Shown here in pieces: positions 6,944 through 60,541 of a stretch of 64,000 bases of DNA (the stretch's first letter is position 1; each line of letters begins with the position of its first letter). This DNA is from Astropecten irregularis. Its lineage: Eukaryota; Echinodermata; Asteroidea; Paxillosida; Astropectinidae. The translations under genes were made by a program, and so were the position numbers. Where the stretch lies: the NCBI GenBank assembly GCA_963971285.1, contig OZ020251.1:7750001-7814000 (forward strand), in the 5' to 3' direction. The notes under the pieces were generated by a model, which was given only the letters and a program-made list of their open reading frames with translations, did not search any database and was not told where the DNA came from.

Positions 6944-6989
6944 TAACAAAAGTTGAACATGTTTCAATCTAACGAACATAGACGACATA

Positions 6990-9900
6990 GACTGTTCAAT
7001 TCATTTCATTTCAATTCAATTCAATTCACATTCTTTTCATTTCTCTACAGGAAATTTGAATTTTTTTTTTGAATGTGCAAAGAAGCTAACCAGTTGTAAA
7101 GGTATTAAGATTGCCCATATTAATGTTAGGAGTCTGTCCTCCAAAATGGATGAAATTCGATTTCTAACGAATAAGCTGGTTATTGATGTGCTATGTATAT
7201 CTGAAACTTGGTTGTGTGATAAAATTAATAATGTTGAAATCCAAATAAATGGTTACAATGTTGTGAGGCATGATAGAACGGATGGTCGCCGGGGTGGTGG
7301 AGTCTGTATCTATGTCAGAAATACCATATCTTTCAACGAGAGGACTGACCTGACTAATGAAGCTCTTGAAGCATCATGGCTGGAACTCAAGTTGAAAAAG
7401 TGTGATTTATTATTATGCTGCATGTATAGACCTCCTAATGCCGATTGTGAGTATTTTAATGGGATCCTCGACACTCTAGATAAAGCTTCTATTGAAAACA
7501 AAGAGATTATTTTATTGGGCGATTTTAATATTGATTATAAATTTGATGAATCCTTAAGCAGCAATCCTATTCATTTGATTGAAAGTTTATATGTTCTTAA
7601 TCAACTTGTTACTAAACCTACACGGGTCACAAATGAATCATCTAAATGTATTGATCTTATTTTAAGTTCGATACCTGAGAAACATACTCTCTGTGATGTG
7701 GCTAAGATAACTCTTAGTGATCACTATATGGTTTATACCTGTATTGACCTTGATTTTAAGGCAACTAAACATAAAACTGTTAGGTTTAGGGACTTTAAAA
7801 AATTCAATGAAGAAGCCTTCCTATATGATCTTGAGTGTTGTTCTATTTTTAACAAGTATGAAGGTTGCAGCTTTGAAGATAAAATGTGGACTACCTGGCG
7901 TGATGAGTTTTTAAAAATAAGTAATAAACATGCTCCTATTAAAACCGTCAGAGTTAAAAACAAATATTGTTCCTGGATGACCCCAGACATTGTTAAACTT
8001 ATGTATAAAAGAGATTTCTTAAAATCACTCTCCATTTCTAGTGGTTGTTCTGATACCTTGAATGAGTACAGAAAAACTAGGAATCTTGTCACCTTGTTAA
8101 TAAGAGAAGCTAAACGTGATTACTTTGATCAGGTGTCTGTTAAATATAGTAATAATCCTAAAAGGTTATGGCGAGAGGTTCATAAAGCCACTGGTAATAG
8201 TCAATTCATCAATAGTACGCATCCTGATCTTAATTGCTCTGATATGAATGATTTCTTCACTGGTATTGGTAAGAAAATTGCTGACTCTTTTAAAAAGATT
8301 CCTCTTGTTTGGAAAAACCCTAAATGTGTTTATAGTCTCAGCTTTGATCCTGTGCCTGATGAGTCTATTTTGAAGTCCTTACGTCATCTTAGTACTGACA
8401 GTAATCTTGATGTTTGGGACTTTGATACTAAACTTCTCAGACTAAGTGCACTACATATTCACAGATCAATTTGTTATATTATCAATCAGTCTCTTAAGAG
8501 TGGTTATATTCCAGATGATTGGAAATTTGCCCGTACTATCCCTATTTATAAGGGAAAGGGTTGCAAAAAGGACAAAGGTAATTACAGACCAATCTCTGTT
8601 GTTTGTCATGTTGGTAAAATTATTGAAAAAGAAGTTCAGGTTCAACTTCTTGATTACCTGAACACTCATGATATGTTTACAACTGATCAATTTGCCTTCC
8701 TTAAGAACCACTCCACTCAGTCATGCCTACATCGAGTCATTGATGATTTTTATGAAGCTTTTAATGAACGTGAAGTTATTGGTTCTTGCTTTCTTGACAT
8801 ATCAAAATGTTTTGATACCATTGACCACGAATTATTACTCTTTAAATTACAACAGTATGGTATTTCTGGTACTGTGCTCAAATGGTTTGAAAACTACATT
8901 TCCAACAGAAAACAAGTGGTTAGATGCAATGGTGAAACGTCTAGTCCTAATGATATTTCTATTGGCGTACCCCAGGGAAGTGTTCTGGGACCAATCTTAT
9001 TTTTAATCTATATTAATGACATAACTCAAAGTGTTAATTCTGATTGTACATGTAATATATTTGCTGATGATGTTATTATTTACACTACTAGGAGTGATAT
9101 GAATGATGTTAATCATGTTTTGCAATGTAACATTGATAGCATTAGTGACTGGTACGAAAGTAATCGTCTTTCTATTAATCCTGATAAAACAAAAATTATG
9201 CTTTTAAAATCAAGTCGTGTGAATAATGATGACAAATTGAATATCTCACTTAAGAATATTCAACTTGAACAGGTTGACCGAGTAAGGTATTTGGGGGTTG
9301 AAGTTGATGAAAATCTCACTTGGGAATCTCATGCTAGGAATGTTTTGAAATCGGTAGCCTATAAGATTCATTCCCTTGGTCGGCTACGTCATGATGTTAA
9401 CAAAAGTCTTCTTAATACCTTATACAAAACAACTATTCAGCCTTGTCTAGACTATGCCAGTTCTGTATGGGGTAACTGCTCAATGACCAATAGGAAGACC
9501 CTATATAGACTGCAAAAAAGAGCTGCCAGGATCGTTGCTAATAACTTTGATTACATTCATTCTCATGGTGATGATATCATGAGAGAACTTTCTTGGCAGA
9601 CCTTTGAACAAAGGAGGGATTATTTTTTAGCTTGTAATATGTACAAATGTGTTCATGGTATAGCCCCTGACAGACTTTGTAACAATGTTGAGATGTATTT
9701 TGATAGGCATGGGTTTAATACAAGAAACGCCAATTCCCTTAATGTTGTAGTCCCCAAAGTTAATATGGATTGTGTTAAGCAATCTCTCAACTACTCAGGA
9801 GCAATTGTATGGAATAATTTACCTGCCGAAGTCCAGAATGCGTCCTCTATTGATAGTTTTAAAAATATGTACAAAAAGCTTTACTTTTAATCGATGTACA

Positions 9901-14874: not shown

Positions 14875-14927
14875 TTCATGGACGGCCACTGCCCTGGCTT
14901 AAAGACAACAGTCAAAAACGTGCACAG
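14875..14927 (+). CDS. Micro-exon gene, exon a (53 nt)
   Basis: The strong acceptor TTTATTTCTCTCCCTACAG precedes it and the donor GTGAGA follows. The chosen frame encodes HGRPLPWLKDNSQKRAQ after a split first codon. An alternative frame with an internal ATG (14878) would stop in the 27-nt exon downstream, so it is less likely. Confidence 0.6.
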
Positions 14928-17900
14928 GTGAGATATTCCTATTTTTATTTTCCAATCACGAAAAGAAATCGACACCAGTGCACAGGTGTGCAAAATTGTA
15001 ATAATAATAATAATAATAATTTATTCTTAATATAGCGTTTTCCATTAAAAATCTCAAAACGCTTTACATAAAAATTCACAATCATAAGTAAGAAAAACCA
15101 TCTATTCATTAACTAATTTCAATATTACGAGTAAAACGTATAATACCCCCCTGAAAGTAAAAAGAAAAAAAATGCTGAACGTTTTAATAAATTTCACACT
15201 CATTACTGATTTATAAATAAACTAAGAGTGTATTTAAGTTACAATCACACCAATTAAAAAAAAATAAAATACAAAATACAAAATAAAACATAAAAACCAT
15301 TAAAACCGATGAAACAGATGAACAGAAATACAATTATTTAGTTTACATGTTAAGAATAATACTTTCTAAAAAGATATGTCTTAAGTTGAGTTTTAAAAAT
15401 GCCATACTGACCGTTATGTCTTAAATAGACTGGAAGTTTGTTCCACAATTTCGGTGCATAGTTAGAAAAGGCACGATCACCATATGTCTTGCTAGGTATA
15501 GGACGAACATTTTGATAGCACAATTTTACCCCATCACAGCTTCTAAAATTGTTTGATGAAATGCATCGGGATTAATAATAATTGCTTAAAGGGTGCCTTT
15601 TACTTTTTCCATTTGTTTTCCCATTTTACTGCTGTTTGTTTTGGTGAAGATCTCTAACAAATGTCATTTCTCTGTTTCATTTTTTGTTCGCATAATGTGC
15701 TTCTGCCATTGCTACCTTCAAGCAGATTGATTTGGTGAGTCGATTGTCTTTATACGTACATTTTGTGTAAACTGAGTTCATCAAACCTTTAAAAAAACAT
15801 GGCTGTAACGTCTGAAAAACATTATGCACATGTCTCACCGATTAATGATTTAACGTATATCTAAATGCGTATAGGATAAATAAACCTTGACAGCTTTCGT
15901 TGAAGAGTCACATTAGAATGACAAATGACTGTAGCATAATGCCAACGACAACAACAACATTATTTTACGGCTTCAGGACAACATGAATGCTTCATTGAAT
16001 TGTTGGATAGGCAAAAACAACAACAAACAAACAAATATAAATCAAAGCAAACAAATAAACCAACAACAAAAATCCGCTTCACTGTTCATGAAGAATCATG
16101 CTTCGAAAAAAGAAACACGCGCGCAAGCAAAAAATAACTGCAAAGTAGTCGCAACTAGATAACATTACAATGGAGTTGCTTGTTAACCTGTGATGTTTGT
16201 GGAAGCGCAACTTTTGCGTACTGATAAAAGTTGTTTCGGAGGGAATGGCTTTGTGTCTAAAAAGTTGCCTAGCACCAATTTCTGGTTTGATCTAAGCAGA
16301 CACAGGTTTCAAACCAAATTTGAGTTTATTATGTGCAACTTGCACAAGGTTCATATCAGATTTTAATCATAAAACCATACGAGCGATCCTAAATATAGTG
16401 CGCCACTAAGTTTTCCAGGCGCACAGCGATTGAGTAGACACATTCCGAGCATTGTGATTGGCCAACGCTTCGCAAACTCTTGGTGGCGCACTATTTATGG
16501 AGTCGGGCGTATTATCTTTGTACTGATAGTAGACCCTTTTTTTTCTTCTTTTTTTACAAACATTGACTCGTAAATGGCATAGGCCGCCAAATGTTTCACT
16601 TCATTTCATCTTCTCGAAAGACGGTGTAACCAAATTCAACGTTTTTGCAAACTTTCCATAGCTTAACAAATTACATACCATCTTTGCTTGTGTTGTTTCC
16701 ATTACATTCAGCAATATCTTTCAATGTTTATGAAACGTTGTGTACAAATTGTGTTCAAATTGTGGTAATTTTTTATGCCAGGCTTTGATGGCTCTCCATA
16801 GTTTCCACCATCTTGGTTTGCAAAAACCCATGCTTTGACGTTGCAAAATAAAGGGGTCTAGAGTAACTGTACGAAAATGCCTCCGGCATGGTGTTGAGTC
16901 ATTAACATGCGGGCTGTTGTAATGGCCTTCATAAAACATGCATAATCGAACGGGCAACCAACATGGTTCCTGAGACAATTTGCTCAACCTGATATTGCAC
17001 ATGAAAAAAAAACCACAAGGCCAGCGTAGATAATAAATGATTTTGGCAATTGCGATATTAGGTTGGGCAGTGAAAAGAACAATAGTGTATGATATTGGAA
17101 TGTACTTCAGATAAGCATTAACATCACATTGATCGTATACATGATACTAGCCTTGCTTCTTTCCATTTTCCTCCCATGTATACAATGATACAACCCGTAA
17201 TACTTGGAATCCAGGACATACATACATACTGCACACTGCTCTCGTGAACGAATCGCGCTCTGCTTTGACAGACTTTAATATCATTTTTTTGGTACCGTAA
17301 TGGATCAAAATCGAATCTCGTTGCTCAGAAAGGAAACCTGAAATTGTGTCTGCGTTTTTCACAAACAAAATTAATGCGCATGTTGAATGTGAACACCAGA
17401 CAAGCAACATGGCTGTCTATTATGTTAACGAATAATGTGCAAGAAGAACGTCGGTTTCAAAGTTTCAATGCTAGTGTATTATAGGGGTTTGCTGCAATGA
17501 AACGCGGAGTGAATTTAAGGTGTAATACAATCGTGATTACCAAAGGTCACAGAACAGCACTCACACTTTGCCTGATCCAGCATATACATGAAATAATAAA
17601 CCTGCAATAATTTGAGCTCAATCGGACATCTGAAATAGGGAAAACCCGACTCAATGTTTCTTATCAAACAAAAGGAATTGTTTTGATCTTACCCTGAGAT
17701 CAAAACTGTTTTCGGTCATTGTTTTACTAAAATATCGAAAACCCGACTCAACTTTTCTTATAGAACTTAAATAATGATTTTGATCTTACCCCAAGATCAA
17801 AACTGTTTTCGGTCTTTATTTCACTAATTTCTGGATAAATACACCATTTCTGGTTGAAATATTTTAACGGTGTGTTTCTACCAGCGTCATATCTATACCC

Positions 17901-20900
17901 TGAAGATTACACGTAAAACTATGAGCATTTCTCGTAGGCTATATTACCAATCCTGTACTGTACCACAAACTGCGCACTAATTAGCCCGGCATACAGCATG
18001 CATTTTTGATGAAGTACACGAACTCCCTCTTCTTGCTCGCGTCCCCACTTCCACCCGACTCGAGTGGGCGATGACAATTCGATTTACGATTAAACGGCGG
18101 CAGATCAAAGTGAGCCCGAGGCTTGGAGAAGAAAAAAAAAGACAGATACAATAACCGAAAAAAAAAAAATTCCAGTAACCTTGATCATGACGAGAAGACA
18201 ATAGGGGGCTTTTACGCTCGCCAACGATACCCCGTGTATTATGTTTACCCTATAGTGTGTACGCAAAATGCTCCATCCCAGTGACGTAGGAGGAGAAGAC
18301 AAGTCTTATAGGGTCAGAAGAATGACATTGAACCTCATTCTCCACGCGGTAGGAAATGCGAAACAATTCCAAGTCTAGAAATAGTATAAAAGAGCAATTT
18401 CTTCACCGCGTCATATATCATCCTTTTATCTTAATTCACCCACGAAGCCTTGGCTCCCATAGGCCACTACAAATCCAATTCTGTCTAGTGCTGATTTTAT
18501 TTATTTATTTATTTATTTATTTTTTGGAACTTGTGTGGACGGCACCGCTCCTCGAGGATGCTGATTGAGATAGGCTTAAGGCAAGATGTCTCCAGAACAG
18601 GGATTAAAAAAATACGAGCGCATAATTACGTCGCCATGGGATAAAAAAGATCGTTTCCATAGCATTAGGCGCTTCAACCATCAGCGCCATGTCATGACAA
18701 CCAAAAAAAACCAGAAAAACAAAACAAGAAAAGTGCAAATTCGATACTATTCTTCTGGGGAATTAGAGAAAGCCCTTTTACCTTTATATATATATATTTT
18801 TTTTTCATTTCTATTTTACCCTGCAATTTGGTTCCCTGCAGGTTAAATAATAAATTTACTATTGGGAGCTAAAGGGCTGAAAGCTCTTAAGGTTGTATTG
18901 AGTACGTCACGATGCCAACGTACTTTTTTTCAGAGAGTTCACTGTACAATATTAATATTGCAACAACAAATTCATCTTTCGCCTAATTCTCACCGCTCAA
19001 AAAAACGCTTATATCAAAGTAACTTAACATCCCCCGACATCTAACCCAAGGAATTAGGGGGAATGACGTTATGATCCTAGCAGGATCTGTCTCTTAGGCT
19101 AAATGGCAAGAAGACATGAGCATGCAGGTTAAGATACACATAAATGGATGAGAGGATCAGAACAAAGAGGGCAGGGCGATCGATGGAAACTCGAGTTGTA
19201 CGAGAGATAAGCAATCGGATATGACGACTTCTACGGAGCAATGCATCATGAGGGTGGGAAATCACAAAGGGATGAGGTAGAGATGGGCAAGTATGGAGAG
19301 GGTAAAGGGACCAAACATTAATTTGTGTCAAAAGGGTATTATTGTATTCAGGAAAAAATATTCAAGAAGGTATAGAGAGATATAAGAAACAGTGATGCAA
19401 GATGGTGGATGACAGAAGAAAACCTTACTTAAAGGTACAGTACAGGATTGGTATCATACCAAAACAGATATGTTCACATATTTACATGTAGTTTTCAGGA
19501 TATGAAGATGGTGCTTATAGAAACATACAGTTAAAATATTTCTGACTTAAATTGTTTATTGATATAGAAAATAATCAAACAACGACCGAAAACAGTTTTG
19601 ATCTCAGGGTAAGATCAAAACAATCTTTATTTTTTGTAAGACAAATTTTGTCGGATTTTCGCAATTTTTCGCTAAGTTCATTGTTTTATGTACATGTTTG
19701 ATGTGTGGTTGCTGTTTTGCGACCTTTTCAGAATTATGTATTATCATGCCTTTAAAATCATCATTCATTTCAGAGTTGGAGTCCCGGGAACCAGCTTCCC
19801 ATCTGTTATATCTCTCCATTTATCATGACCGTTAATGAAGTTTAAACGGACCATGATGGTGTTTATTCCTATCTACCGTATTCATTACCGTGTCCAGCAC
19901 ACCGCAATGTGCGCAGTATATCCCTGAAAATCACTCTTGAAGACATAAAATTTAATGATATTCGAGGTGTGCTTGCTGAAACGAATTAGAGTTAACCTGA
20001 CATCAAGAAAATAATTATAACACCACCATTACAAACAACATTAAATGTAATATCTTATTTTGGTTTAAGAAATGCAGATTCATGGGCACAAATATCAAGG
20101 AAGATACAATAACAGTCATCTGCGAAATTTTAGGCTCCATGCGGTGTCCACGTTTTGAGAAAACAGTGAAAAAACAAACAAACCGTTTTTGGTAATTGGT
20201 TTTAACATTTTATGGATACCTACAGCATTTCAGGCAGAATAATCTTGTAAGGTGTGTTTCTACCATCACAATTTTTATACCCTATAAGTTATAGGTATAT
20301 CTGCTAAGATTTCTGTTTCGGTAGGCCTATGCTACTATTAGTATGATAGTATATTTAAATATTCTTCAGTTCACATTTTGGAAAGTGCTAAAGATGTTTG
20401 TGAATTGGACTTCTTTAACGGTAGACGAGAACGGTTTCTTTACATTTCCAAACAAGAGACGATTGTCAAATGCGAAAATCAATGCATAATTCATTGTATT
20501 ATCTTAAGCTATTTACACTTATACACTTGTTACTACAATGCTACAATGTTTATTTTGCACAATATTTGTTCCGAAATATTTATGTCATCGAATGGAAAAG
20601 AAAAGGTAAACATTCACAATGCTGATAAAGTTGTTAGCAAAACTTAATCACATTAAAAAAAAATTGGACAAAAAAAGTTTAAGCGAAATCGTTATTGTGA
20701 AGAAATGTGTGAAGCTTGGGTCGCCATTTTCCGTTCTCGGTTAAACTTGACACAACTACTCTATGCAAACCTGTCAAGTTACAGTGGAGTTGGACTATAC
20801 TTGTAGAGTCTGATTTATTTCAATCAATGACATTTCGCAGATACATTATGATTACACAGACACACAAACGACACGATCATTACCACATCTTGGGCAATTC

Positions 20901-23900
20901 AAATAATAAAGCTCTTTTCTCACCAGTCAAAACTAAGAAATATCGGCATAAGTCTCTTTCAGCCCCCATTCCAAATGTGTTTCATCGGCACCCCTTCAGT
21001 ATCGGCAAAGGGACCTGGTTCCACTGAAATGGGAGGTGATCTGGGTCTTCTCCAAATGTAACGTTTTTAACTGCTACATTAACTACTTTGCTGCGAATTG
21101 AAGTTAAAATGGTAAAAGATCGGATGTTTACAATTAATTGGAGGAAAGGCCCATGGTATTTGTGTCGATTACATCCGCTCATTCTACTAGGTCACCTCGT
21201 TATAGATGTTTATCATTGGTGTTTGTTCCAGATGTGATGTTTGTTCACACTTGGCTTTACCCTAAATCGCATCAATGCTCTTATATGGGTCCTTCCTGCC
21301 TTAGCCACAGTTTCTCCAGACGTATATTTACCTAAACCACCAAAAAACATATTCACTTTCAGCCAATCTTCCCAGCTACTGGGGAAACGAACCGGGTTCC
21401 TCAGTCTTCTCATATAAAACGCACGTGTCTTGTAGAGGTTATTCGGGAACAAATTTGAGCCTCAGAAAGTCTGGTGCAATCACAGCTCTTTCGATGCAGA
21501 AAGTCCGGAGATTCGAGACCCTTTTTCCCCATCAATTGTTTACCATTCCCAGAAGAATCAATATCTGAAATGACGGTCCGCGCTGACCTTTAGTTTCTGG
21601 TGTCCGGCTGGCATTTAATATAATATAGAACTCTGGATATTGCGTTGTTTTGTGCATTATTGTATTTCATGGCAATAACTGGGCTGTTTATTGTTTTACC
21701 ACGCTTCTGTTGCAGGGCGCACGGGTAAGTAACTCTATGCATGTATCAGCAGTATCTTGTCCGTATGTTGAGACAAGTCTAAAAGCCGTGAAATGATAAT
21801 AACTAACCATAACTCTTTGGCAGACTAAACACAATGAAACTAATTTCAAGAAGCCAAAGTTATAACAAAAATACCGTTGACATTTCTCGGCAAAGGTAGT
21901 TTTGCGGTAACTATTTGGAACACGAAACCGCGCAGACTTATTGCAGGTGGCTTGCATAGCAGGCGCATGGTTGTCAGCCAGAATACCACGTGATGAATAC
22001 TGCAAATGGCTGGTTCCCGCGCGGTTGATATGTCAGTGTGATGTATTGACCAGCATTGAACCGTGGATGGAATGAGCAAGATGAATGTTACGCGGGAAAC
22101 AGAAAATGACAGACAATGTGAATATTGCAGACGGATATCGAACGGTGAAAAGATTAGAGAGGCGGGAATAAGACCTACAGGAAATAGGAGACCATGTTAA
22201 TATTGCAGACGGATATCGAACGAATAAAAGACCATGTACAGAGGCGGGGATAAGACATACAGGAAAAGAGAGAAGTGGTTTGGGGCTTACCCGGACGGAA
22301 AAGAAGAGACAAAAACGATGTAAGAGGAAGCGGGGTGTTTATCAAGGTCTTTAAGGGTTTGTCTCTTGTGTATGGAGTCGATTTCGGAGTTGAAGCCTTA
22401 TGATCGATCGTGACTCGAGTTTCGTAGAATAACCTATCGTGCCCTATACTTAGGGCAGCTGCAATGCATCATAAGTCCTTGCGATTGAAAGTTACGATGT
22501 GTGTGGTGTAATAGACCCCTGAGCACGTTAACACCAATGTCAACACTTAAAGCTAGACTTGGTAGACTAAAGTAGACAAGCTATGTTTCGCTATTTCACA
22601 TAATCCATAGGTCACGTTCACAGGCAGAACTTCCGCCATTAATGAATGTACCCAAAACAATCTTCTTCTTACGGTGTTACTCTGTGACGAAGTGAAAGTT
22701 GCATGTCTTGTTGTTATTGTGTCGTGGTGTTTGTCAAGTTATCTCTCATGGTAAGGTGATGCTATTTATTTCTTATAGTTTCCTAGTTTGGTTTATGTAT
22801 ATTTTTTTTAAGAAAATCATCAACATGTAGCTGTGCTTTTTTTTCAAGTGGCAATGTAATTCCACCTCGTGATTTGATACAGTTTTCAAGATATAGATTT
22901 TGTGATGTATCCACTGCTTTTGTTTTCTTGAAAATGTTGCCAGTTGAGTATATAGAGGCTTTAGACGTGTGATCATTGATATATTTAATATTCCCATTTG
23001 TTATGCATGTAATCATTCACTAAAAACGGCGTCCTTGTCAATGATTTTGATAGTCACGGTTATGATGGTTCTGTTTGGACGGATGGGGGCGTTTCCTCTT
23101 GACGTATGTCTGCACAAACATTAGCGAATTCATTTCAGTATTTTGTTTGCATGAATGCGTATCTGGTACCTTGTATGCACCGAGCAAAGTAGGTTGAATA
23201 TGTCCCCTCTTGGAAATTCTAAAGGGGGCTCGACAGGTTTCATAAGAAACTTACTTTTGGAATTAACTCCAATAAATAGGAGTTTATACTTATCCGTCGC
23301 AAAGTCGACAAGTATTTTTGTTAGAAATGGGGGTTCGCTACAAATTTCAACCCTCGAATTAATGTGACTCTGGTTCCAATGGGAGCGATTTCAACTCTGC
23401 TCTTCGGAGAGTGTTGATTAGTACACACAAAGTCATGCCTCCACAAGCAGTTCTTTCACTGCATGTGTGTAAACGGTCGTAAAACTATCATTGTTCAAAT
23501 TAGGCATGCCCTTCACCGACGTGGGTGAGCACTGTATATACTCAGTGCTTGTGAGAGCAGTTGAAAAAAAAATCACATGCTGGCTCAGCATCCCACCTGA
23601 GCCAGCATATGACTTTTTAACGTGCTCTCACAAGCACAGAGTATACAGTGCTCATCTATTTCCCGACCAAAATCAATCAATATTCATAAATCATTGTTGT
23701 GCCTTGTCTGTATCCTGTAAAATTGTCTATTGCTGCAGTACGAATGAGCTAAGAACGAACTTTCTATTAACTGTTTCTTATTGCATTATCAAAAGTAGAA
23801 GTAGTACTGGAGCCTATGTGCATTTTCCTGTTCATTTTATGGACATTGTGATTGGTCAACGCAATGAAAACTCTAGGAGGCGCACTATTATGAATCGGCC

Positions 23901-26900
23901 ATATCAATTTACGCTATACACGGGTTTACACTTCCAAAAAAGCGCATGCGTGATAGTGCCTCGTTTTGAAGTCGCGATCAAAACTGCCAAAGTGTAAACC
24001 CGTGTATTGTCTTCGACAATGGACGGGCTTACACTTAGAAAAGTGCGCACGCGTGGAAGTGCCTCGTTTTGAAGTTGCGATCAAAATCCAAGATGGCCGC
24101 CATGGTGTAAACCCGTGTATTCCACTAATTTGCTTCGGCGGCAGGCGACATGTTATATATGTGTAGCATGCTTACTGTGATTATTGCCGACGTGTTTATG
24201 TGTCATGATTCGTGATATAATTTTTTCTGGTACCACCCTTACGTTATTTTAATCATCTTAATTTATGTTTTACTCCATGCTTTCATTTGGGATTGCTAAC
24301 GCGGCAGAGGGTATGTTCACCAATCGATTCAATTCTTGCTGTTTTTATTTCATTTTATTTCATTTTATTTCTAACCGATGGTGGCGCTGTTTACCGCGCA
24401 CGGTACGAATGTACAATATGCTCGCTGAGGGCGCTCACACCACTTTATGATATAATTTCTAGACCAGCGAATCTTATTTCACTTAGCTGACAAAATCGTA
24501 TGTTTACCAGCGAAACACTCTTGAGGAACTGGATGCAGCTTTATTTAAAGGCCAAAGGTTCTGTGCTCGTGCTTTTGATTGCATTCATGGGTAATTGATC
24601 ACGAGCTAACAGAAATATTTTTTTCTTCATCCCGTTTGCTTGCTTGGTCTGGACGGAGAAGCAATGTGAGGTAAGCATAACAATACCATTTTCTATAATT
24701 TGTTAACATTTATTTTATGCATTTTTTTCTTAGAATTTGTATCCAAAAAATATCATTTCTGTTTTATCTTCACCATTTTGTGACTACCTTCAATATTAAG
24801 CAAATGTTACAATTCATGATTGTAAAATGTTGTACCAATAATTGCCGTGGCAGTATTCTTCCTTACATGTGCATTTTTACGATCAAAACCAACTTCTTTA
24901 ATTGAATACGTTGCATAACATAATGGCCTGAAATTCACACGCTAGGCTGATAAAATTATCTCTTATTTTCTCGATAGACTAGAGATAGCAATGGTGTGTG
25001 AGGTCGTCTTTTTGGAGTCTGTATATGATTAAGATGTCTGTATATTATCAGAGGATCACCAACTGGGGCCAATTTAGTAGAGCTGCTTAAGCACCAACAT
25101 TTGCTTAAGCAACAAAAAACCTTTGTAAATAAAATCAGTATGCCAGCCAAAACTCCTTGTGACTGTTATGCTCAGCAGACAATGGCCGAATACAAGTAAA
25201 AAGCAGTACACAAATACATGGACATTTTGATTGGCAATCCTGTTTGATCAAAGAAAACTTTTCATGCTTTGATTTTTAAAGCAGGTCTATGAAATTGGCC
25301 CATGGTGTAAGGCTCAGTTGAGCAAGTACTGTGTTTGATATGTTGAGGCCAAGTTGAGACGTTGATCATTTATCAATGTGGATATATGTTGTGCTTTAAG
25401 GTTGTCTTTTAGGTTATCAATACTGACAACGAATAATTCGAGCCCATCAATCAATGGATTGATTAATCCAAGTATTAAGATCTACATCAAATATTCTTAA
25501 CAAGAATGATAATTGCTAAATTTCAAAGATTTATCGCTTATTTATTTTGATGTTATACACCGATACATCACCAAATTCATTATTTTGTTTTCTTTTTTTC
25601 GCATGCAAACGCCAACACCGTTTTTCTCCACGTGGCAGCTTGATCCAAGGGTAAGATATAATTGTTGTTGTTTAAAAAAAATCACATGCTTCAAGACATT
25701 GAGTATCGTCTTTGTATGTGGTGAAACAGTAGAGATAATCCGTAATGCCATTGAATATGAAATTCACAATCCAGCAATCTCGCACACTCGCACTGGTAAT
25801 TATTTTCGTATACCTTTGTTCTAATTTGGGTCGTATTCGGTATCTTACAATACATACCTTGATCAAAAGAATTGATTGTTGATTTAATATCGTGTTCCTT
25901 TTTTTCCTTTCCATGTATCTTTCCCGGATATTAGAACTGTCACGGAACCGTAAGTTCAGATTTGGTTATCTCGTTTTTGGTTTTTTTTTTTTCATTGAAA
26001 AATTGACTAGAGCGGGACTCGAACCAGCGACCTCCGGAATACCGTACAGGCACTCTTACATGTATTACCACCTGAGCTATCCGGCTCTTTGTTGGTTGAG
26101 TCCCTAATATTCAATTTTCTTTAAAGTGGAAATGTGAAATAAAGATTTATAGATATTCTGTTTATTTTTTTCGAATGGATTATTTTGTACCGCTGTTTTA
26201 TGCAAAATTTATAAATAAATACGTTTATGTGGTTTCTTTTTTTGCAGAACTGGAAGAATCTGGCTGACTTAAAAGTGAGTTGAAAAAATACAGAAAACCA
26301 TGTTTACTCTGTAACAGCACGTAGAGAAATTGCTCAATCTAAAGATGAATTGATTATCCAGGCAAACTCGTTCACCCTATTAGATATAAGCTGCTCTTGT
26401 CAGTTTCCTTATTTTAGCTATTTTCATTTTGGGGACAATTTAATGCACGGTCAGCAATGACTGTTAGATGTTCCAGGGTAAAATCATATATGGCTAGGTT
26501 TCCTGCCGCAATTGTAGAATTTTGAACCATTTTAAAATTGATGCACATAATGATTGTGTAGTCTAATCGCCATCTTTTTGTTGCTAAACAAATAGAACCG
26601 GTTGAAATGGCCGAATGTTGCAAAACATTCAAAGTACAATCTTTTCGCGAGACGCTTGCAACAAAATTAAATGTTTGCTTTGCCCTTTAAGCCATAATAA
26701 ATGTATAAATGAATACTGCTTGGTTGTCAACAAATTCAATACGAACTTAGACTTATAGGACATGTTTAAGTTGATGGCACCATTGATTTTGTCTTTGATT
26801 TTACCCTTTTTCAGGCTAGCTATGCCAGCCGTTCACGACAAAGAGACCGCTCAAGAAGCAAGCGACGACTGTTCGATATACTTCAGAAACAGACCAACCC

Positions 26901-26931
26901 TGAGCTCAACGCACCAAATAAACTCGAATAA
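14875..26931 (+). CDS. Micro-exon gene, 3' part (unidentified small basic protein)
   Basis: Exons at 14875-14927, 15726-15734, 21716-21724, 25639-25650, 26248-26274 and 26815-26945 have consensus acceptors and donors (GTGAG, GTGAGT, GTAAGT, GTAAGA, GTGAGT, GTAAAT). Joined, they give a single open frame. The first carries 2 nt of a split codon; all later exons are phase 0 up to a TAA at 26929-26931. The peptide units are HGRPLPWLKDNSQKRAQ, IDL, GAR, LDPR, NWKNLADLK and a 38-residue basic end containing SRSRQRDRSRSKRRLFDILQ. The stop lies 14 nt before the last donor, and an acceptor at 27809 would start a 3' untranslated exon. The 5' exons, with any signal peptide, were not found. I do not recognise the protein. 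The basic clusters would fit a processed secreted peptide or a nuclear protein, but neither is shown. Confidence 0.6.
14999..15570 (-). mobile_element. Truncated CR1-like LINE, minus strand
   Basis: The minus strand from about 15555 down to 15365 encodes the end of a LINE ORF2, with VRPIPSKTYGDRAFSNYAP, KLWNKLPVYLRHN and FKTQLKTYLFRKYY. A 3' untranslated part follows and ends in an ATT-repeat tail at 14999-15021 (plus-strand ATAATAATA). It lies in the first visible intron of the micro-exon gene, in opposite orientation. It belongs to a different lineage from the LINE at 6990, because both the tail and the C-terminus differ. Confidence 0.85.
15726..15734 (+). CDS. Micro-exon gene, exon b (9 nt)
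   Basis: ATTGATTTG (IDL) lies between the acceptor CTACCTTCAAGCAG and a perfect donor GTGAGT. An AG three bases upstream could instead give a 12-nt exon (QIDL). Both keep the phase. Confidence 0.5.
15735..16382. other. Intron sequence, no feature recognised
   Basis: Runs of AACAA and AAACAAACAAA occur around 16010-16070. No exon or repeat family was recognised between the micro-exon and the next foldback element. Confidence 0.45.
16383..16506. mobile_element. MITE family B, complete short copy
   Basis: The left end CGATCCTAAATATAGTGCGC with CCACTAAGTTTTCCAGGCGC is mirrored on the right by TTGTGATTGGCCAACGCTTC, AAACTCTTGGTGGCGCACTA and GAGTCGGGCG. The internal part is deleted relative to the 3081 copy. 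Confidence 0.8.
16530..16860. mobile_element. MITE family A, copy in reverse orientation
   Basis: It begins TAGACCCTTTTTTTTC and ends TGACGTTGCAAAATAAAGGG then GTCTA. Inside it repeats copy A1 in reverse complement: GCCAGGCTTTGATGGCTCTC, CATAGTTTCCACCATCTTGG and ATGTTTATGAAACGTTGTG. It is about 330 bp and lies directly after a family B copy, as A and B also do at 6346-6943. Confidence 0.8.
16861..17635. other. Intron sequence, no feature recognised
   Basis: Open frames on the minus strand at 16721-17002 and 17147-17410 are shadows of repeats or AT-poor patches and show no domain. No exon is called. Confidence 0.4.
17636..17965 (-). mobile_element. MITE family E2, minus strand, with internal duplication
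   Basis: It ends in CCAATCCTGTACTGTACC, the reverse complement of the E2 start at 14456. A block of about 90-105 bp containing AAAACCCGACTCAA, the palindrome GATCTTACCCTGAGATCAAA and CTGTTTTCGGTC occurs twice in tandem (about 17641-17730 and 17748-17826). Confidence 0.8.
17966..19430. other. Intron sequence, simple repeats only
   Basis: It contains TTTA repeats near 18498-18521, A-rich runs, and a TATATATA plus T-run near 18785-18805. A CCTAGCAGGATCTGTCTCTT word lies at 19075. Short frames have no recognisable content. Confidence 0.45.
19431..19760 (+). mobile_element. MITE family E2, copy 3
   Basis: It starts TAAAGGTACAGTACAGGATT and ends TATTATCATGCCTTTAAAA. The centre is TTTTGATCTCAGGGTAAGAT followed by CAAAAC. 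It aligns along its whole length with the 14456 copy. Confidence 0.85.
20047..20350 (-). mobile_element. MITE family E, diverged copy
   Basis: It holds the conserved words GATTCATGGGCACAAATATC, AGGAAGATACAATAACAGTC, ATCTGCGAAATTTTAGGCTC and GTGTTTCTACCATCAC in the order of the minus-strand E1 consensus. The ends are decayed (ATATCTTATTTTGG and AGTATGATAGTA). Confidence 0.75.
20351..21715. other. Intron sequence, no further feature
   Basis: Minor frames at 20378-20647, 20716-21027 and 21138-21335 lack splice signals or known domains. No repeat family was recognised here. Confidence 0.4.
21716..21724 (+). CDS. Micro-exon gene, exon c (9 nt)
   Basis: GGCGCACGG (GAR) sits between a textbook acceptor (TTTACCACGCTTCTGTTGCAG) shortened here to its last 20 bases and a perfect donor GTAAGT. 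The 9-nt length keeps phase 0. Confidence 0.55.
22112..22270. repeat. Direct tandem duplication, about 80-85 bp unit
   Basis: AATATTGCAGACGGATATCG occurs at about 22120 and 22201. Each copy is followed by AAC(G), a degenerate AAAAGA segment, GAGGCGGG and ATAAGAC with TACAGGAAA. Confidence 0.85.
22377..22518. repeat. Foldback element F, copy 3
   Basis: It starts GTCGATTTCGGAG with CTTATGATCGATCGTGACTC and ends in the decayed form TGGTGTAATAGACCCC. It contains CTGCAATGCATCATAAGTCC. Confidence 0.75.
22519..23507. other. Intron sequence, no firm feature
   Basis: A possible extra 12-nt micro-exon (TTATCTCTCATG before GTAAGG at 22749) has only a weak acceptor and is not called. The rest is AT-rich. 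Confidence 0.35.
23508..23665. mobile_element. Foldback element H, copy 1
   Basis: Long arms: GCCCTTCACCGACGTGGGTG, AGCACTGTATATACTCAGTG and CTTGTGAGAGCA on the left are mirrored by TGCTCTCACAAGCAC and GTATACAGTGCTCATCTA on the right. An inner palindrome, TGCTGGCTCAGCATCCCACC with TGAGCCAGCATATG, sits at the tip. A second copy lies in receptor intron 14 at 54206. Confidence 0.85.
23842..23905. repeat. MITE family B, right half
   Basis: ATTGTGATTGGTCAACGCAA, AAACTCTAGGAGGCGCACTA and TGAATCGGCC form the right end of family B. A family C element starts 12 bp downstream. Confidence 0.75.
23917..24006. mobile_element. MITE family C, copy 1
   Basis: About 90 bp with TACACGGGTTTACACTTCC at the left and AAGTGTAAACCCGTGTA at the right. 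The interior reads GCGCATGCG and GTGCCTCGTTTTGAAGTCGC. The ends fit a TA target. Non-coding. Confidence 0.85.
24020..24120. mobile_element. MITE family C, copy 2 (tandem with copy 1)
   Basis: It repeats copy 1 in the same orientation after 14 bp. The interior GTGCCTCGTTTTGAAGTTGC and AAGATGGCCGCC match the copy at 55520 almost exactly. The AAGATGGC word resembles a YY1 core site. Confidence 0.85.
24121..25064. other. Intron sequence; possible 9-nt micro-exon at 24662-24670
   Basis: A duplicated TTTCATTTTATTTC word lies at 24347-24370. CAATGTGAG (QCE) is followed by the donor GTAAGC at 24671 and preceded by AAG after a pyrimidine-rich stretch. It would keep phase 0 and fit between the GAR and LDPR exons. 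The acceptor is weak, so it is not called as an exon. Confidence 0.35.
25065..25301. mobile_element. Foldback element G, copy 1
   Basis: It starts GGGGCCAATTTAGTAGAGCT with GCTTAAGCACCAACATTTGC and ends CAGGTCTATGAAATTGGCCC. The ends are inverted. The GCTTAAGCA palindrome is the family hallmark. Other copies are at 49868 and 60022. Confidence 0.85.
25639..25650 (+). CDS. Micro-exon gene, exon d (12 nt)
   Basis: CTTGATCCAAGG (LDPR) lies between the acceptor TTTTTCTCCACGTGGCAG and the donor GTAAGA. Phase 0 in and out. Confidence 0.55.
26006..26098 (-). repeat. tRNA-derived SINE (family I), minus strand
   Basis: In plus orientation it reads ATTGACTAGAGCGGGACTCG, AACCAGCGACCTCCGGAATA, CCGTACAGGCACTC and ACCTGAGCTATCCGGCTC. 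This is the complete B-box to A-box body in reverse complement. It lies in an intron of the micro-exon gene. Confidence 0.85.
26248..26274 (+). CDS. Micro-exon gene, exon e (27 nt)
   Basis: A T-rich tract ending TTTTTTTGCAG precedes it and GTGAGT follows. It encodes NWKNLADLK. The other two frames contain stops, so this exon fixes the phase of the gene. Confidence 0.65.
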
Positions 26932-26945
26932 TGGAAACTGTTCAG
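26815..26945 (+). CDS. Micro-exon gene, last coding exon
   Basis: The acceptor is TTTTACCCTTTTTCAG and the donor at 26946 is GTAAATG. In phase 0 it encodes ASYASRSRQRDRSRSKRR, LFDILQKQTNPELNAPNKLE and stops at 26929-26931. A second frame is also open across the exon and into the next one (to GISX at about 27896), but the upstream 27-nt exon excludes that phase. Confidence 0.6.
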
Positions 26946-27183
26946 GTAAATGTCTTTCATACTGTCATTCCATTGCTTGTCTTGTCTCCAAGTGCCAGTT
27001 TTGATAAGCTTGAACGGTGATTGAGATCAGTTTTTTTCCGAATAGGTTTTTTGAATGTTTGTTTGAATGAATTGAATGAACTTGGATTAAACTCGAAATG
27101 AAAAGCTGTGGTGTATCAACAGTGGTTTAAATCCCTCCTTTTTTAGTATGAATGCGAAGTTGGCAATGAACGAAAGCCTTTGG

Positions 27184-27735
27184 TTGTTGGCGCTGCTGTT
27201 GCGGTTAAGACTGCCGCTACTGCTGTTGGTGCTGCTGCTGCTGTTTTGTTTTTGTTTTTTTGCTTCTGTTCATGTTGTACCTGTTGCGTTATTCATGCTG
27301 TTGCTTCCGTGTTGCTGCTTTCGATGCTGCTTGCTGATTTTGTTGTTGCCGTTGATATTGCTGTTTCTGTTGTTACTGTTGCTGGTGCTGCTGCTTTCCT
27401 TGTTTTGCTGTTGTTGCTGCTGCTTTTTGCTGCTGTTGTTATTGCCGTTGCTGTTGTTGTTGCTGTAGCTGCTGCTACTGGTGATGCCGTTGTTGCTGTC
27501 ACTGTTGCTGGCGCTAGTGTTTTTTCTTTTTGCTGATTTTGCTGCTGTTTATGCTGTTTATGCTGCTGGTGTTTTTGCTGCTTTTGTTATTGAAGTTGCT
27601 GATGCTGCTGCTACCGGTGTTGCTGCTGTTATTGATACTGTTGCAGTTGTTGATATTTTTTTATGTTGTATCTGCTGTTGCTTTTGTTGTTGCTGTTTTT
27701 GTTGATGCTACTGATTTGCTGTTATAGTTGCTATA
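27184..27735. repeat. Degenerate GCT/GTT trinucleotide tract
   Basis: About 550 bp of interrupted TGCTGTTGT-type triplets, with almost no purine runs on the plus strand. It opens several low-complexity frames (Leu/Val/Ala on plus, Ala/Thr on minus), which are by-products of composition. It lies in the intron after the stop-containing exon of the micro-exon gene. Confidence 0.95.
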
Positions 27736-27808
27736 GTTGTCTTCCTGTTCTTGATTGAGAAACTATAAAGTTACCCTCATCAGTTTTGTTTCTTTCATTT
27801 TTATCCAG

Positions 27809-28450
27809 GCTTTCACGTCGTCTTGGACCATCTGGAAGCCACTCCTACGCCGACTAGACAAGATAATGATATTCCCTGCAATCTGGGGATCTCGTAGTAA
27901 TGAACAGAAAAAAGAACTACAACAAAATGTTGTTAATTATCAGCACATTGTCTTTGAAAGTTATATTTTATAATATCAATTGCAACGTGAAGGCAACCGG
28001 CATAATAGATTTAGCTTTTCGGTATTTATCATCACAATTTTTCGTCCCAAAATGCATATCCACTTGTTGGGGTCAACGTATGAACATATGACGTCATCCG
28101 TCTGTTGTGTTTCTATTCTTTAAAATAATTTACACACGCGAGGAGTACGTACGGCTGGAAGTGGACCGTACAATGTGCAACACATGTACAGAGTGCGTAC
28201 GGATCACGAGATAGATCCGGCTAATTTTAACGCATCTGCTGCCACCAACGTTTGCGAAGTTTATTATCTGTTTGCCTTCACGTCACAATTTTTCTTTCAA
28301 GTCGACAGAGGGCGCCCGAATCTATAAAAACCACTGAGAATATTATTCAATACGATAAAATTAACAAATACACTAGGCATCAACTGCTAGTAATTCTCAC
28401 ACAATTTGGCACTCGTTCACTGCAGAGACACGGCACTTTAGAATGGAAAT
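27809..28450 (+). other. Probable 3' untranslated exon of the micro-exon gene (end uncertain)
   Basis: A strong acceptor (TTTGTTTCTTTCATTTTTAT then CCAG) ends at 27808. It would splice to the donor at 26946, downstream of the stop codon. The 3' end is not defined. No clear AATAAA was found within the first few hundred bases, so the right limit is a guess. Confidence 0.4.
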
Positions 28451-29614
28451 AGAAGGACAAGTTACTGTTTCTAATTAAAATTTAATCTGAACCCTTATTG
28501 AATCTAGCACGAGTTCAAGTTATTAATGTAATATGAAATTCTTTTCGACAACATTCCTGACAAACACAAGAAAATAATGATATAATAATGACGGATTAAA
28601 ATTAATACGATAGAAAAAAAATGTGAACCACCTATTTTCACTTTCAACGAACTTTAGCATTGGACCAATTTGGACTAGATAATGTCGCTCCATTTTTTCT
28701 CTATAAAGCAGTCTCCTAGTTTTCTCTTTGTGCCACTTTCATTGACTTTCTGATATTTGGTGATAACAATTAATTTTGGATAGAATCTGTGTCGTGATAC
28801 GCATAATTTACATGATTTACAGAATGGCAAAGTTATAAAGACTTAAGCAAAAACAAAATAAGAAATGTAGATACATCGGTAAAGCGATATTTAGCTCATT
28901 ATGATTGTTCGTAGTTTTATGATTTAGTTCGTGCAAAACATTAATAGTTTATGCAAAATAATGATTCACAGTTACATAATTCTGACATGACTTTAAAATG
29001 TATATTTTTGGAAATAATTTTATCAACGCTATTTTAGTCGGTAGGAATTATTAACATGGCTTAAACTACTGGGAAAATATTGTATGAAGATATTTTGCGA
29101 TCTTATTTCAGGATACTTTTTTGAGATGTCAGTTAATACGTCTAGACGAGTTGTGATAACGCTCTCCTTTGAATTTTTTTTAAAAAGAAAATGGAAAAGC
29201 ATTTTTCTCTGGTTCCAATTGAAAACAATCAGTCAATTTTTTTTTTTGGGGGGGGGGCCAAAAATAATAACAAATTTGAACTTATTTGAAACAAATGCAG
29301 AAACGAACATCAAGTAAACTTTTCCCTTGTATCAACATTTTGAAGCGGATGAATAATCAGTTTGCAATGGCTAGTTTGAAATTATTATACATGTATTTAA
29401 ATATTACAGATAATTCACGCAAAATCATACTTATAATTTCTTGCTATTTTGACTTGGATACAATATTTCAACGATTTAATGTGGAATAAGTAATATTTTT
29501 CTTTTAGTATTAGATAGTCAATTGATGTTATATACATTAAATCATTAAAGAAATTGACAGAAATATTGACAAATGACTGTATTCACAAGGAAGAAGAATA
29601 TTCTAATCACACTA
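28451..29614. other. No gene recognised
   Basis: AT-rich DNA with a T-run followed by a G-run at about 29237-29257 (ten T then nine G). No exon or repeat family was identified. Confidence 0.5.
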
Positions 29615-29735
29615 GGGGCCTGTTTCATTAACGTACAGGATCAACAATCTGCAGATGCACGTCACATGTAAGATACGCTAACATGGGTTCCGGATCAGTA
29701 GGATCCGTGATCTTGAGCGTGAAACAAACAGGCCC
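29615..29735. repeat. Foldback element M
   Basis: The end GGGGCCTGTTTCATTAACGT is mirrored by CGTGAAACAAACAGGCCC. The interior GGATCAACAATCTGCAGA and GGATCAGTAGGATCC contains smaller palindromes. A single copy in the window. Confidence 0.75.
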
Positions 29736-30351
29736 GAGATACCACCAGCACACTAGAATACTACTTAACATCACCGTGATACTAACGCGTAAGCCAGACA
29801 ACCACATACAAGACAAGTAGACCCCGACGGTACATGAATACTCTATCTCTCCACACAAAATAGACACGAGAAGATATCACTGATAAATGTATATAATAAT
29901 AGTTAGGTAGCAGTCAATGTCACTGTAGGCATTGAGCACTCGCACCATTATAAGCCACGCTTATGTGTCTGGTACCAAGACTGCGGAATTGAATGGTCAT
30001 TCCAACACACTAATGAATAAGAACATCAAAACTACCATGCGTAGTTATTATCGTATTATTGAGATGTTAACGGATTTTCACAACAGAAAAAAGTTCTGAG
30101 CAGAATAATATCATATGCTTGTTAGTTACGACCTGAAAGTAGTCCAAAATGCTTGTGGAAAAAAATCGAGGTACGTATTTTCAATCTCTTGTAGTTAGTG
30201 AATTACGCCACCAACTTTCTAGATTTATTTTATTATTTAAAACAAAAAGAAGAATTTGCTCGACGAGCGTAAGGTAAGGTCGACATCCACTCTGATTCGA
30301 CATAAAATGTCGCAGCGTCAAAATGAGAGAAAGGTCGGCCAATGGCCATTT
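29736..30351. other. No gene recognised
   Basis: Intergenic; nothing beyond short random frames. Confidence 0.5.
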
Positions 30352-30498
30352 GGAGACTTTGGAGAACGGGTCTTCAAGTCAACAGCGCACGCGCACGCAC
30401 GAGTAAGAGTAAGCACGCGCAAAACAACGCGCGCATGCTCACATTTGCACGCGGTTGCGCTGTAGACTGTCTTGAAGACCGGTTCTCCAAAGTCTCCC
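30352..30498. mobile_element. Foldback element D, copy 1
   Basis: The left arm GGAGACTTTGGAGAACGGGT, CTTCAAGTCAACAGCGCACG is mirrored by CTTGAAGACCGGTTCTCCAA, AGTCTCC. The centre is alternating GC/AC sequence (GCGCACGCGCACGCACG and GCACGCGCAAAACAACGCGC) with Z-DNA-forming character. Other copies are at 34909 and 55812. Confidence 0.9.
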
Positions 30499-30722
30499 AT
30501 TATGAAGCATCATTACCCGGGACTTTCGGGTTGCAATTCCTCATCCGTTTTTAGAAACCAGAGGCAATTCGTGACATGTTGGGATTGGGTAAACAAAATT
30601 ATGGCTCTAAATTCTTGCGTCTTTTGTTTACTCATTCTGTGATGTTATACGGCATGTCAAGGAAAAACACTGACCATGGGCAATGTGGGGTTGCGGGGAT
30701 GACATGAATGATTATAGACTTT

Positions 30723-39900: not shown

Positions 39901-42900
39901 TCATGAATGATTCAATGTTGTCGTTTTTTGTTGCTCTGACAAACTTCTTTTTTTGGATTTCTCCGGATTGTTGACGCAGTATGGGTTACTCGGCCAGACA
40001 AGCCCGGTTTCGGGTTTCCTGCAGCTATCCGGCACCACGACCGAGTCCCTACCAGCATCACGACATCGCATGACTTAAATCACCTTGTCTCCCAATATCT
40101 CTTCTTTCTTTTGTTTTGTTTTTTTCTTCCGTCCTGTTTTTTTTTATGATGCTTTGCCCTTACCAATTAGATATATTCGCTTGATATCTTTATGAGGAGC
40201 GTCATATCATAATCTGTCTACCCTACGTAATTGGAATAACTCAGCTCGCGATTCAGGTGATTTATTCACTTGATCAATTCGCTGGCCGTCCTCCCCACTA
40301 GAAATTTCTCCAGTAGGCCTATCGATTACATGTAATCATTTTCCGTGGCGAAAATTAATTGCGATTTCTCATGTCCTTTCAATTGCCCCTAATTTCCCGG
40401 CACTTTGTAACTTGACATGATGGCTTCGCGATTGAGAGATTGCCTGTTAACATGATTAGTCTCTCATTTCCTCATTTTTGTGGTGAGCAGAAAATGTTTT
40501 TTATAATATGTAGTTTGCTTGTTCGTGTAAAGTGTGTCCTGATTTGGAAACAAAACTGTTGGAGCTGTAGTGGAGAATTTGGTGAAAAATATGTGACAGA
40601 TTTCAGTTAATGTCTGGCCGGACCTGACTTTCAACGGGGGTAAATGGCATCAAACGCGTTAATATTCATAGGCCTAAATCTTGGGAGAATCCTAAAACTG
40701 TAATAGTTTCAAGTCAGCACTGTAATGTCACCTGTATATGAGTGGCAGGCTGGCTTGCAGCACCTCCAGTTGATAAAGTTTAATCCATTTGGTTATACAA
40801 GGTCGTATATGAATGGTTGTTTTTGGCAATTTTAGGAATGATCATGATTTTGCCACTGTACTTTTCAGTTGCAGTTAGAAATATTTTGTTTCCTTTTATA
40901 TTAAAGGTTCACATATCGCCTAATGTTCCCATGTTAGCATTGCCATCCCACTAACCATTGGATTATTATAGGTTTTCCCGGTCATGTTCGGCAAATGAGC
41001 GGACAGTTTAAACTCTTCGTCATTCCGTTTCGCGTGAAACTGCAAGGCACCTCAAACTAGTCATTCGATTTTACTTCATGTGCAAGCAAATGTTCAAAAG
41101 CGTCAGGCGATTAAACAGAATCGCCTTTCTATTTAAAATTTCATTCGAGAAGCATTCAAATTCGCAACGGCTTTTGGCAGGGTGCTAAATTGAATGCCGA
41201 TTTTGTATTGCTAAACTGAAAGACTGTTGAATTTAATTTATTGCAATGCTATATAGATATAAGGATGCATCAAAGGGAAATCGAGTGACGGTTTCAACCG
41301 AGGAGGCAAAATCACGTCAACACGAATGCGTGAAAATGAAATTTGCCGCTCATTTGCCGACAATGACCGGGAAACCCTAAATGTTTTCTCTCATCCGTCT
41401 GCAGGTCTCCCCCGGTGGCTCAACACCCGTGCTAAACGACCGTCATCGTTTCCCATACATCTACCGCGCACTGATATCTTCCGCCGGTTTCTCCCACGCT
41501 GAAATGGCGATAACACAGATGTTTGGATGGACGAAAATTGCCACGTTGCACCAGACGGTTGAGCCGCACGTTGGGGTAAGATGATCGATGGTTACCCGGT
41601 GAAATCACATCCAATTATTCATAAGTAGGCACGTTCACACACTATTTGGGTTGCGATTTGGACACAAATAGTCGTGAATTTGTTTTGGTGCCCCGTTCAC
41701 ACAGCAAATAATCGCGACTTTTTGCAAAAAGACGCAATATTCGTCCGATTTAAATCGCGCTCCAAATTGTCCTCAAAATCGCAATTGTTTGTGTCCACAC
41801 ACAAATAAGCGCGATTATTTGGGTCGCGATTCAAATCGTGAACGTGCCTATTAGAGAGAATAAGATAATTAATTCACTTGTGCATGCAGTTTTGACGCCA
41901 AAGGTGGACCAATAAACTACATCCGTCTGACCTTTGGACTATATATATATATTTTTGTTTCACTTTCTGCTCACATTCAGGCTGCACTAGAGATGCAACG
42001 GCTGGCAGAGGTAAACAATATCACCGTGATTGCCGCGGAGAGTTTCTACGCCGAGGTCGATGATGCCATGCAGCGATTAAAGGTAAAGTCATACACGTGC
42101 GTTTTGTGAACTCTTCCTGACAGCAGATATATCACTCAAATAGAGTCTCTTCGGGTGGCCTTAGATAATTTCAAAATGAGACTTGGGGCTTTAGGCTTGA
42201 ATGTGATTGTGATACCGCCATTTTTGTGTCCTAAACTAAAGAAAGGTCTTGAGATACATGGGCGAAGCTGGAGCCTTTGTTATTCGCTTCCGGTTTCATC
42301 AATATTAGGGCCTATGTGTATTTCGTTTTGTGGGTTTCAAGGCACTAGCCAATAGCCTCAATCGTGGTTTCGTTTAGACCTTATTAACTTTACGGTAAAT
42401 CCATCTGGCATTCGAAGCAGTGCATTCAAACCGAGGCTTGAATTCATAACAGTCTGGACTCTGGTGCCCTATTTCTGTTTAGAATTTGTGTTATATTTCC
42501 CAATGGGTATACAGGAAAGGTGACAACGTTTATGCACCGTGAATAAGGCCTATAGGCCATAGAGAGAGAGTTGCGACACTATTTCGGATACGAAATGGCT
42601 GTTAGGCTACCTTGTACAGATGTGGTATCGTTAACCAATTATTGACGCAAAATCGGCCATTTTGTATCAAAAATTGGGGGTCATAGTCGCTAATTTCTCT
42701 AAGGGAGTTATATTTTATCTCATATCCAATGGCAGCTAGTTTAGTGGCTTTCCAGACTTTATATCTAGTTATGTGTGTCGAGATGATGGCGGTTGCAGGA
42801 TAGATAGCTCGTAAACACACCATTCGAGCATTCGAAGTGTGTACAGTCCCTCGTTCTTGGCCTTTTTCTGTCAAATCCTGCAACGATCTGTTCCCTGCAA

Positions 42901-57599: not shown

Positions 57600-57706
57600 T
57601 TGACTATTAGGGTTACCACCAACGTAGGGTTGGATGGCTCAGTTGGTAGAGCACCTGTATAGTATTCAGGAGGTCGCCGGTTCGAATCCCGCTCCAGTCA
57701 ATTTTT
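57600..57706 (+). repeat. tRNA-derived SINE (family I), best copy
   Basis: Leader TTGACTATTAGGGTTACCAC, A box TGGCTCAGTTGGTAGAGCAC, CTGTATAGTATTCAGGAGGT, B box GGTTCGAATCCCGCTCCAGT, then CAATTTTTCTTCG. The promoter boxes match pol III consensus. The acceptor stem does not close, so it is a SINE head and not a tRNA gene. Confidence 0.9.
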
Positions 57707-60266: not shown

Positions 60267-60471
60267 TGGTTACTGCATAACAGTTAATGGGTTAGGGTCT
60301 GTTAGACTGTGCATTGTGTGACATGCTGGTTAGATATTGGATTGCGGCTTTTGAACAACTTGAAAATTATGTGAATGTGCTGCAGTATTTTAGATGGCAT
60401 TTTACTCTTGAAATCCTGAGAGACATTTTTCTTTCTAATTCCAGTACTTGCAGGTGATTCTGGAGGCGGGG

Positions 60472-60541
60472 ATGGCTGGGTGTATCAACATAAGAACTCT
60501 GTTTTATCTGCAGTTCAGCTGTGTCGTCGCAATATGCCTCT
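60472..60541 (+). CDS. Transferase exon with start codon
   Basis: ATG at 60472; 23 codons plus 1 nt; donor GTAAGT. The hydrophobic stretch without an upstream cleavage motif suggests a signal anchor. Confidence 0.75.

Follow-up and report, generated by a model that had tools for sequence, protein, structure and literature searches.

A probable secreted-peptide gene with a chain of symmetrical micro-exons in a starfish genome

The window, the whole stretch of 64,000 nucleotides that was analysed, lies inside a 21.7-Mb contig of a 475.7-Mb starfish genome. Its left part carries, on the + strand, a chain of exons that includes four micro-exons of 9 to 27 nt. The chain and the exons proposed upstream of it are given below, with negative coordinates counted from the window and splice scores in bits as acceptor/donor; the scores derive from generic metazoan matrices.

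C15:7677156-7677216 (window coordinate -72844 to -72784; L009:7156-7216), + strand: proposed exon 1, a candidate signal-peptide exon of 61 coding nt, MRRAMIAILLWLCSTCVLAT and then G
-25511 to -25389 (C15:7724489-7724611), + strand: 123-nt exon candidate, 5.6/6.5
14875-14927, + strand: exon 2, 53 nt, acceptor 6.8, donor 7.3; its first two bases complete a split codon and the rest reads HGRPLPWLKDNSQKRAQ, with a putative KR cleavage site inside
15726-15734, + strand: IDL micro-exon, 9 nt, 2.2/4.4, the weakest of the four
21716-21724, + strand: GAR micro-exon, 9 nt, 5.4/7.2
25639-25650, + strand: LDPR micro-exon, 12 nt, 3.8/5.0
26248-26274, + strand: NWKNLADLK micro-exon, 27 nt, 6.0/4.3
26815-26945, + strand: exon 7, 6.9/4.9, encoding ASYASRSRQRDRSRSKRRLFDILQKQTNPELNAPNKLE, with the stop codon at 26929-26931
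27809-27897, + strand: start of the last exon, acceptor 9.0, 3' UTR in frame A

Genes and a mobile element were recognized in the surroundings, within the window and upstream of it.

L011:4986-6221, about 95 kb upstream of the window: C2H2 zinc-finger gene, with zf-C2H2 in 9 stretches
Upstream: an FG-repeat open reading frame that we take to be Nup58-like, without a Pfam match
6957-9890: LINE, a 977-codon open frame with endonuclease and reverse transcriptase domains
33642-55432, + strand: class C receptor-like multi-exon gene, presumably a GABA-B type receptor, with an ANF_receptor match at 41405-41575 (E 4.5e-06) and another, below cut-off, at 48313-48594
60445-62841, + strand: glycosyltransferase gene, with Nucleotid_trans (PF03407; E 2.7e-14) at 61870-62841 and, by eye, a possible membrane-anchor exon from 60445, YLQVILEAGMAGCINIRTLFYLQFSCVVAICL

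Examination of the whole stretch confirmed the micro-exon chain that an earlier note on this DNA had described. All of its exons were located at the coordinates it gave, up to the last acceptor at 27809, and on joining they yielded a single open frame, here called frame A, that ends in the 38 residues it had listed. The internal micro-exons, which it described as phase-0 multiples of three, are divisible by three in four cases out of four. Of these, GAR and NWKNLADLK are strongly supported, LDPR moderately and IDL weakly. The further 9-nt exon that it considered possible, QCE at 24662-24670, was dropped, its acceptor scoring -6.0. Among candidate exons of 31-350 nt on the + strand, exons 2 and 7 were the only ones in the first 33 kb, with exon 2 also listed in a longer variant that ends at 14985 (donor 5.0). 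As a control for the matrices, about eight stretches between 33.6 and 53.2 kb, taken for exons of the class C receptor-like gene, were listed as well, 41405-41575 being the only one of the receptor-like stretches scanned that passes the Pfam cut-off. The introns of the proposed chain measure 87,658, 798, 5,981, 3,914, 597, 540 and 863 nt. In the last exon and beyond (27809-30500) no AATAAA was found; of its variants, which do occur there, TATAAA at 28323 comes first.

To set the micro-exons against chance expectation, candidates of 3-30 nt were counted in the 64-kb window at thresholds of 1.5 and 3.5, giving 17 that do not exceed 30 nt (10 on the + and 7 on the - strand). GAR ranked best, and all four claimed micro-exons stood within the top six on the + strand; the other two of these six, 9-nt candidates reading GGTGATAAG at 34688 and TACTTGCAG at 60445, are apparent starts of longer coding exons and were not added. 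Forty first-order random sequences of equal length contained a mean of 5.1 candidates (maximum 12), or 1.7 divisible by three (maximum 5), and the best random candidate exceeded the GAR score of 12.64 in 1 of the 40. Between 14928 and 26814 there are four candidates of at most 36 nt, all four divisible by three, where 0.11-0.36 were expected. The corresponding Poisson P is 6e-6 to 5e-4 for the two settings that retain all four micro-exons (164 kb) and 9e-6 to 7e-4 for four stricter settings, under which two or three survive, the thresholds of all six settings having been picked with the exons already known. A looser donor threshold brings one extra candidate into the interval, at 24978-24993, which is 16 nt long and not divisible by three. 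The micro-exon cluster thus exceeds chance expectation. A fortuitous run of exon-like signals within non-coding DNA would be compatible with the lack of relatives described below and with exon 7 being open in 16% of shuffles in frame A and 13% in frame B, but the cluster P and a separate signal-peptide exon of matching phase both argue against such an origin, which we regard as improbable.

The least secure element of the chain is the IDL exon. Its acceptor is a tandem, AAGCAG, so that use of the upstream AG could alternatively make the exon 12 nt long and its product QIDL. It may also be that only GAR, NWKNLADLK and perhaps LDPR are spliced and that IDL is a chance match, as its scores and the extra AG three bases before the acceptor would suggest, and as the frame would permit, being independent of IDL with four symmetrical micro-exons. 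On the other side, IDL is still among the 10 candidates on the whole + strand, TGC motifs start 16, 22 and 28 nt 5' of it, and weak acceptors are reported for exons of the fly that are under the control of the eMIC splicing domain (PMC8797185). We give the omission of IDL a substantial minority chance; as it is a variant of the main reading and overlaps with it, the odds of the readings do not sum to one.

The micro-exons share with eMIC-dependent neuronal microexons a very short length and symmetry. TGC occurs within 20 nt of the acceptor in three of the four micro-exons compared with 2 of 11 other acceptors, and no other AG lies within 58 nt in three of the four compared with 3 of 11, both comparisons resting on small numbers. 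eMIC microexons, however, combine UGC with a weak 3' splice site and a long AG exclusion zone, whereas the GAR and NWKNLADLK acceptors are good. A search for the SRRM_C family found no match in the genome and none in its 14 controls either, and is therefore uninformative.

The 5' end, left blank in the earlier note, now has a strong candidate in exon 1, which lies 87.7 kb upstream of exon 2, outside the window. Its donor, ACAG/GTAAGT, scores 8.8, and the phase in which it ends is the phase needed by exon 2, giving V at the joint. It was one of four donor sites returned by a lax first-exon scan of the 100 kb upstream (phase 1, donor at least 3, hydrophobic start). Under a stricter signal-peptide rule applied in all three phases to 164 kb of both strands, only a pair of exons with a donor of at least 5 remained, the second having a donor of 5.4 on the - strand; ten 120-kb one-strand simulations yielded four such exons with a donor of at least 5 and none of at least 7. 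The signal-peptide call follows a simple hydropathy-based rule of our own rather than SignalP. GC content rises just 5' of exon 1, where the 500-nt segments starting at -73499, -73249 and -72999 rank 9, 14 and 56 of 654. A signal-peptide exon as the candidate 5' end suggests that the gene encodes a secreted peptide precursor.

The interval between exons 1 and 2 contains 17 candidate exon rows and many open reading frames (listed from at least 95 codons), among which, judged by eye, nothing was convincing as protein except a LINE. One of the rows, the 123-nt candidate, is symmetrical and open in exactly the phase required for a place between exons 1 and 2; it is one of the 10 rows that reach a summed score of at least 11 over both strands of 164 kb. 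Owing to its poor codon score (-11.8 over 40 codons) it was omitted from the model; an additional exon may nevertheless be present at this position, in which case the product would have 136 residues.

Two frames compete over the flanking exons. In frame B, exons 2 and 7 and the last exon would encode ...FMDGHCPGLKTTVKNVH-R-LAMPAVHDKETAQEASDDCSIYFRNRPTLSSTHQINSNNGNCS-G-FHVVLDHLEATPTPTRQDNDIPCNLGIS, the 27-nt exon would be either unreal or a poison exon introducing a stop, and the signal-peptide exon would belong elsewhere. Frame B is open over exon 2 (17 codons), over the entire exon 7 (43 codons, this being the +1 frame of that exon) and, in the last exon, over its final 28 whole codons, with its stop at 27895-27897. 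Its synonymous codon score is 8.1 compared with 0.9 for frame A, and its GC3 of 0.56 is closer than the 0.46 of frame A to the 0.59 of the training genes; the training set comprised 1296 codons from neighbouring open reading frames, including the zinc-finger gene and the Nup58-like frame. Per codon, frame A scores 0.009 and frame B 0.09, corresponding to the 9th and 33rd percentiles of 93 overlapping neighbouring coding segments, and relative to 2,000 non-coding segments frame A lies above about 97% and frame B above about 99%. Codon usage leans to frame B and does not settle the choice. Several features weigh against frame B, however: it meets a stop within the 27-nt exon, whose splice sites are good and in which frame A alone is open, each of the other two frames containing a stop; it requires either an upstream phase-0 exon, for which nothing convincing was seen by eye, or a start at ATG 14878, although the exon around that codon has a strong acceptor; it deprives the signal-peptide exon of its exon 2 partner; and its peptide has no Pfam match. 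Because frame A is needed by the signal-peptide exon as well as by the 27-nt exon, we hold it to be the likely, if not certain, reading frame, and frame B to be unlikely, though a serious rival. Both frames are open in exon 7 (26815-26945), and one of them runs on into the last exon (27809-27897), which raises the possibility of dual coding.

Read in frame A, the joined exons give a conceptual product of 95 residues, MRRAMIAILLWLCSTCVLATVHGRPLPWLKDNSQKRAQ-IDL-GAR-LDPR-NWKNLADLK-ASYASRSRQRDRSRSKRRLFDILQKQTNPELNAPNKLE, with putative cleavage sites at KR after DNSQ and at RSKRR; no amidation Gly precedes KR or RSKRR or stands at the C-terminus. We favour, with a probability of about 60%, a starfish gene of some 101 kb (-72844 to about 27.9 kb) that encodes a small secreted and probably processed peptide precursor with micro-exons. 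Exon 1 would supply the signal peptide, provided that it joins exon 2, and exon 2 a short pro-region ending at the KR site. A PC-type cut after KR would then place the micro-exons at residues 3-21 of the processed peptide, and exon 7 would contribute an Arg-rich region with the RSKRR site, as well as a C-terminal peptide of 20 residues. Since all micro-exons are divisible by three, any one of them could be skipped with the frame intact, and skipping could produce as many as 16 versions of the processed peptide that differ close to its N-terminus; the predicted processed peptides include forms that start AQIDL..., AQGAR... and AQNWK..., and also LFDILQKQTNPELNAPNKLE. With only 14 nt between the stop codon and the last donor, nonsense-mediated decay is not expected.

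Searches for relatives assigned no family to this product. No Pfam family scored above cut-off with the joined peptides or isoforms, and Unpaired, Usp-48 and DUF2398 appeared below cut-off, each varying with the isoform. The two matches in PDB, of which the better had an E of 0.95, were to designed TPR proteins. In the genome, the joined peptide found its own exons 2 and 7 and a weak match of E 1.9, taken for chance; no second copy or relative was found, and within the limits of that search the gene is single-copy. The peptide strings were absent from the text of open-access papers, and a micro-exon gene for a secreted peptide in echinoderms was reported in none of the open-access titles and abstract openings. 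The gene is probably real and is unusual, and its product would be an orphan secreted peptide. Taken as a whole, the interpretation of the earlier note is partly supported: the chain, its frame, its phase-0 pattern and the guess of an echinoderm source stand, QCE falls away, a 5' end can now be proposed, and the identity it left blank has gained no relative.

One family deserves separate consideration. If GAR and LDPR are skipped, the pattern IDL...NWKNL...RRLFD bears a loose likeness to urocortin 1, and the product could be an addition to one of the known families of helical peptide hormones, for example corticotropin-releasing hormone (CRH)/urocortin. The urocortin 1 score of this isoform was reached in 39 of 20,000 shuffles. 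The resemblance was picked post hoc out of 16 peptides and 4 isoforms, however, and neither CRH itself nor urotensin I gave an outstanding score. Pfam CRF (PF00473) remained unmatched by seven constructs at E up to 10 and by three others, and the product ends without the C-terminal Gly that the Asterias CRH precursor, of 130 residues with a 41-residue peptide, carries (PMC4772807). Scanned against the genome, PF00473 gave 5 sub-threshold matches, none at the micro-exon gene and the best of them repetitive in appearance; the model may miss starfish CRH. Membership in this family seems to us very improbable. A resemblance to TIP39 was set aside; like that to urocortin 1 it is not significant given the number of peptides and isoforms tried, and it also spans the KR site.

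Compared with the neuropeptide precursors of the starfish Asterias rubens, the candidate is alike in being a small precursor with a signal peptide by the simple rule and with dibasic or furin-type sites, and differs in lacking an amidation Gly and in having micro-exons inside the processed region. An amidation Gly is common in neuropeptide precursors and not universal. Judged by length and cleavage sites, the candidate corresponds to none of the Asterias rubens precursors compared (PMC4772807).

In layout the gene resembles the micro-exon genes (MEGs) of flatworms, a likeness of layout and not one that would imply kinship of sequence. Flatworm MEGs are described as encoding the signal peptide in their 5' exon, with symmetrical micro-exons below 36 nt making up most of the coding centre, and as giving a small secreted product (PMC4671649). 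Here, four of five predicted central exons are 9-27 nt long and four of four micro-exons are divisible by three; the share drops to four of six if the 123-nt candidate is counted. In MEGs, most or all of the signal peptide is encoded by the exon at the 5' flank, and here a candidate exon of the right phase lies 87.7 kb upstream. The gene is unlike MEGs in its starfish host, in the single copy found, in its very long first intron and in exon 2, which at 53 nt is longer than a micro-exon. As to the host, contig C168, of 16,335 bases, reads as an animal mitochondrion with translation code 9. Echinoderms and flatworms cannot be told apart by this code alone. We take cox1, cox2, atp6, cox3, nad4 and nad5 to share a strand and nad1, nad2 and nad6 to occupy the opposite one, and nad1 and nad2 opposite cox1 presumably represent the starfish arrangement, which would place the gene outside the flatworm lineage that belongs to the definition of a MEG.

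These comparisons permit a bolder and more tentative reading, which at present we doubt more than we believe: an echinoderm-own micro-exon gene in which exons of 3, 3, 4 and 9 residues edit the start of a processed peptide, as a combinatorial code that evolved apart from flatworm MEGs. In its boldest form exons 2 and 7 would each code in two frames, the promoter of the signal-peptide exon serving frame A and another promoter frame B. If the exons are variably used, the gene would provide nearly residue-by-residue splicing of a secreted peptide, outside flatworms and neuronal proteins, and it would do so in animals for which catalogues of neuropeptides exist. As exons of 9-12 nt can be lost by ordinary aligners and gene finders, peptide precursors of this kind may be missed or misread.

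Smaller elements of the window include a tRNA-Thr (AGT) gene at 57628-57700, a weaker tRNA-like match at 54975-55047 that may be a SINE, and a short tandem repeat array at 46396-46720 that is open on both strands (CSLCSLCSL / FSMFSMFSM / ENIENIENI).
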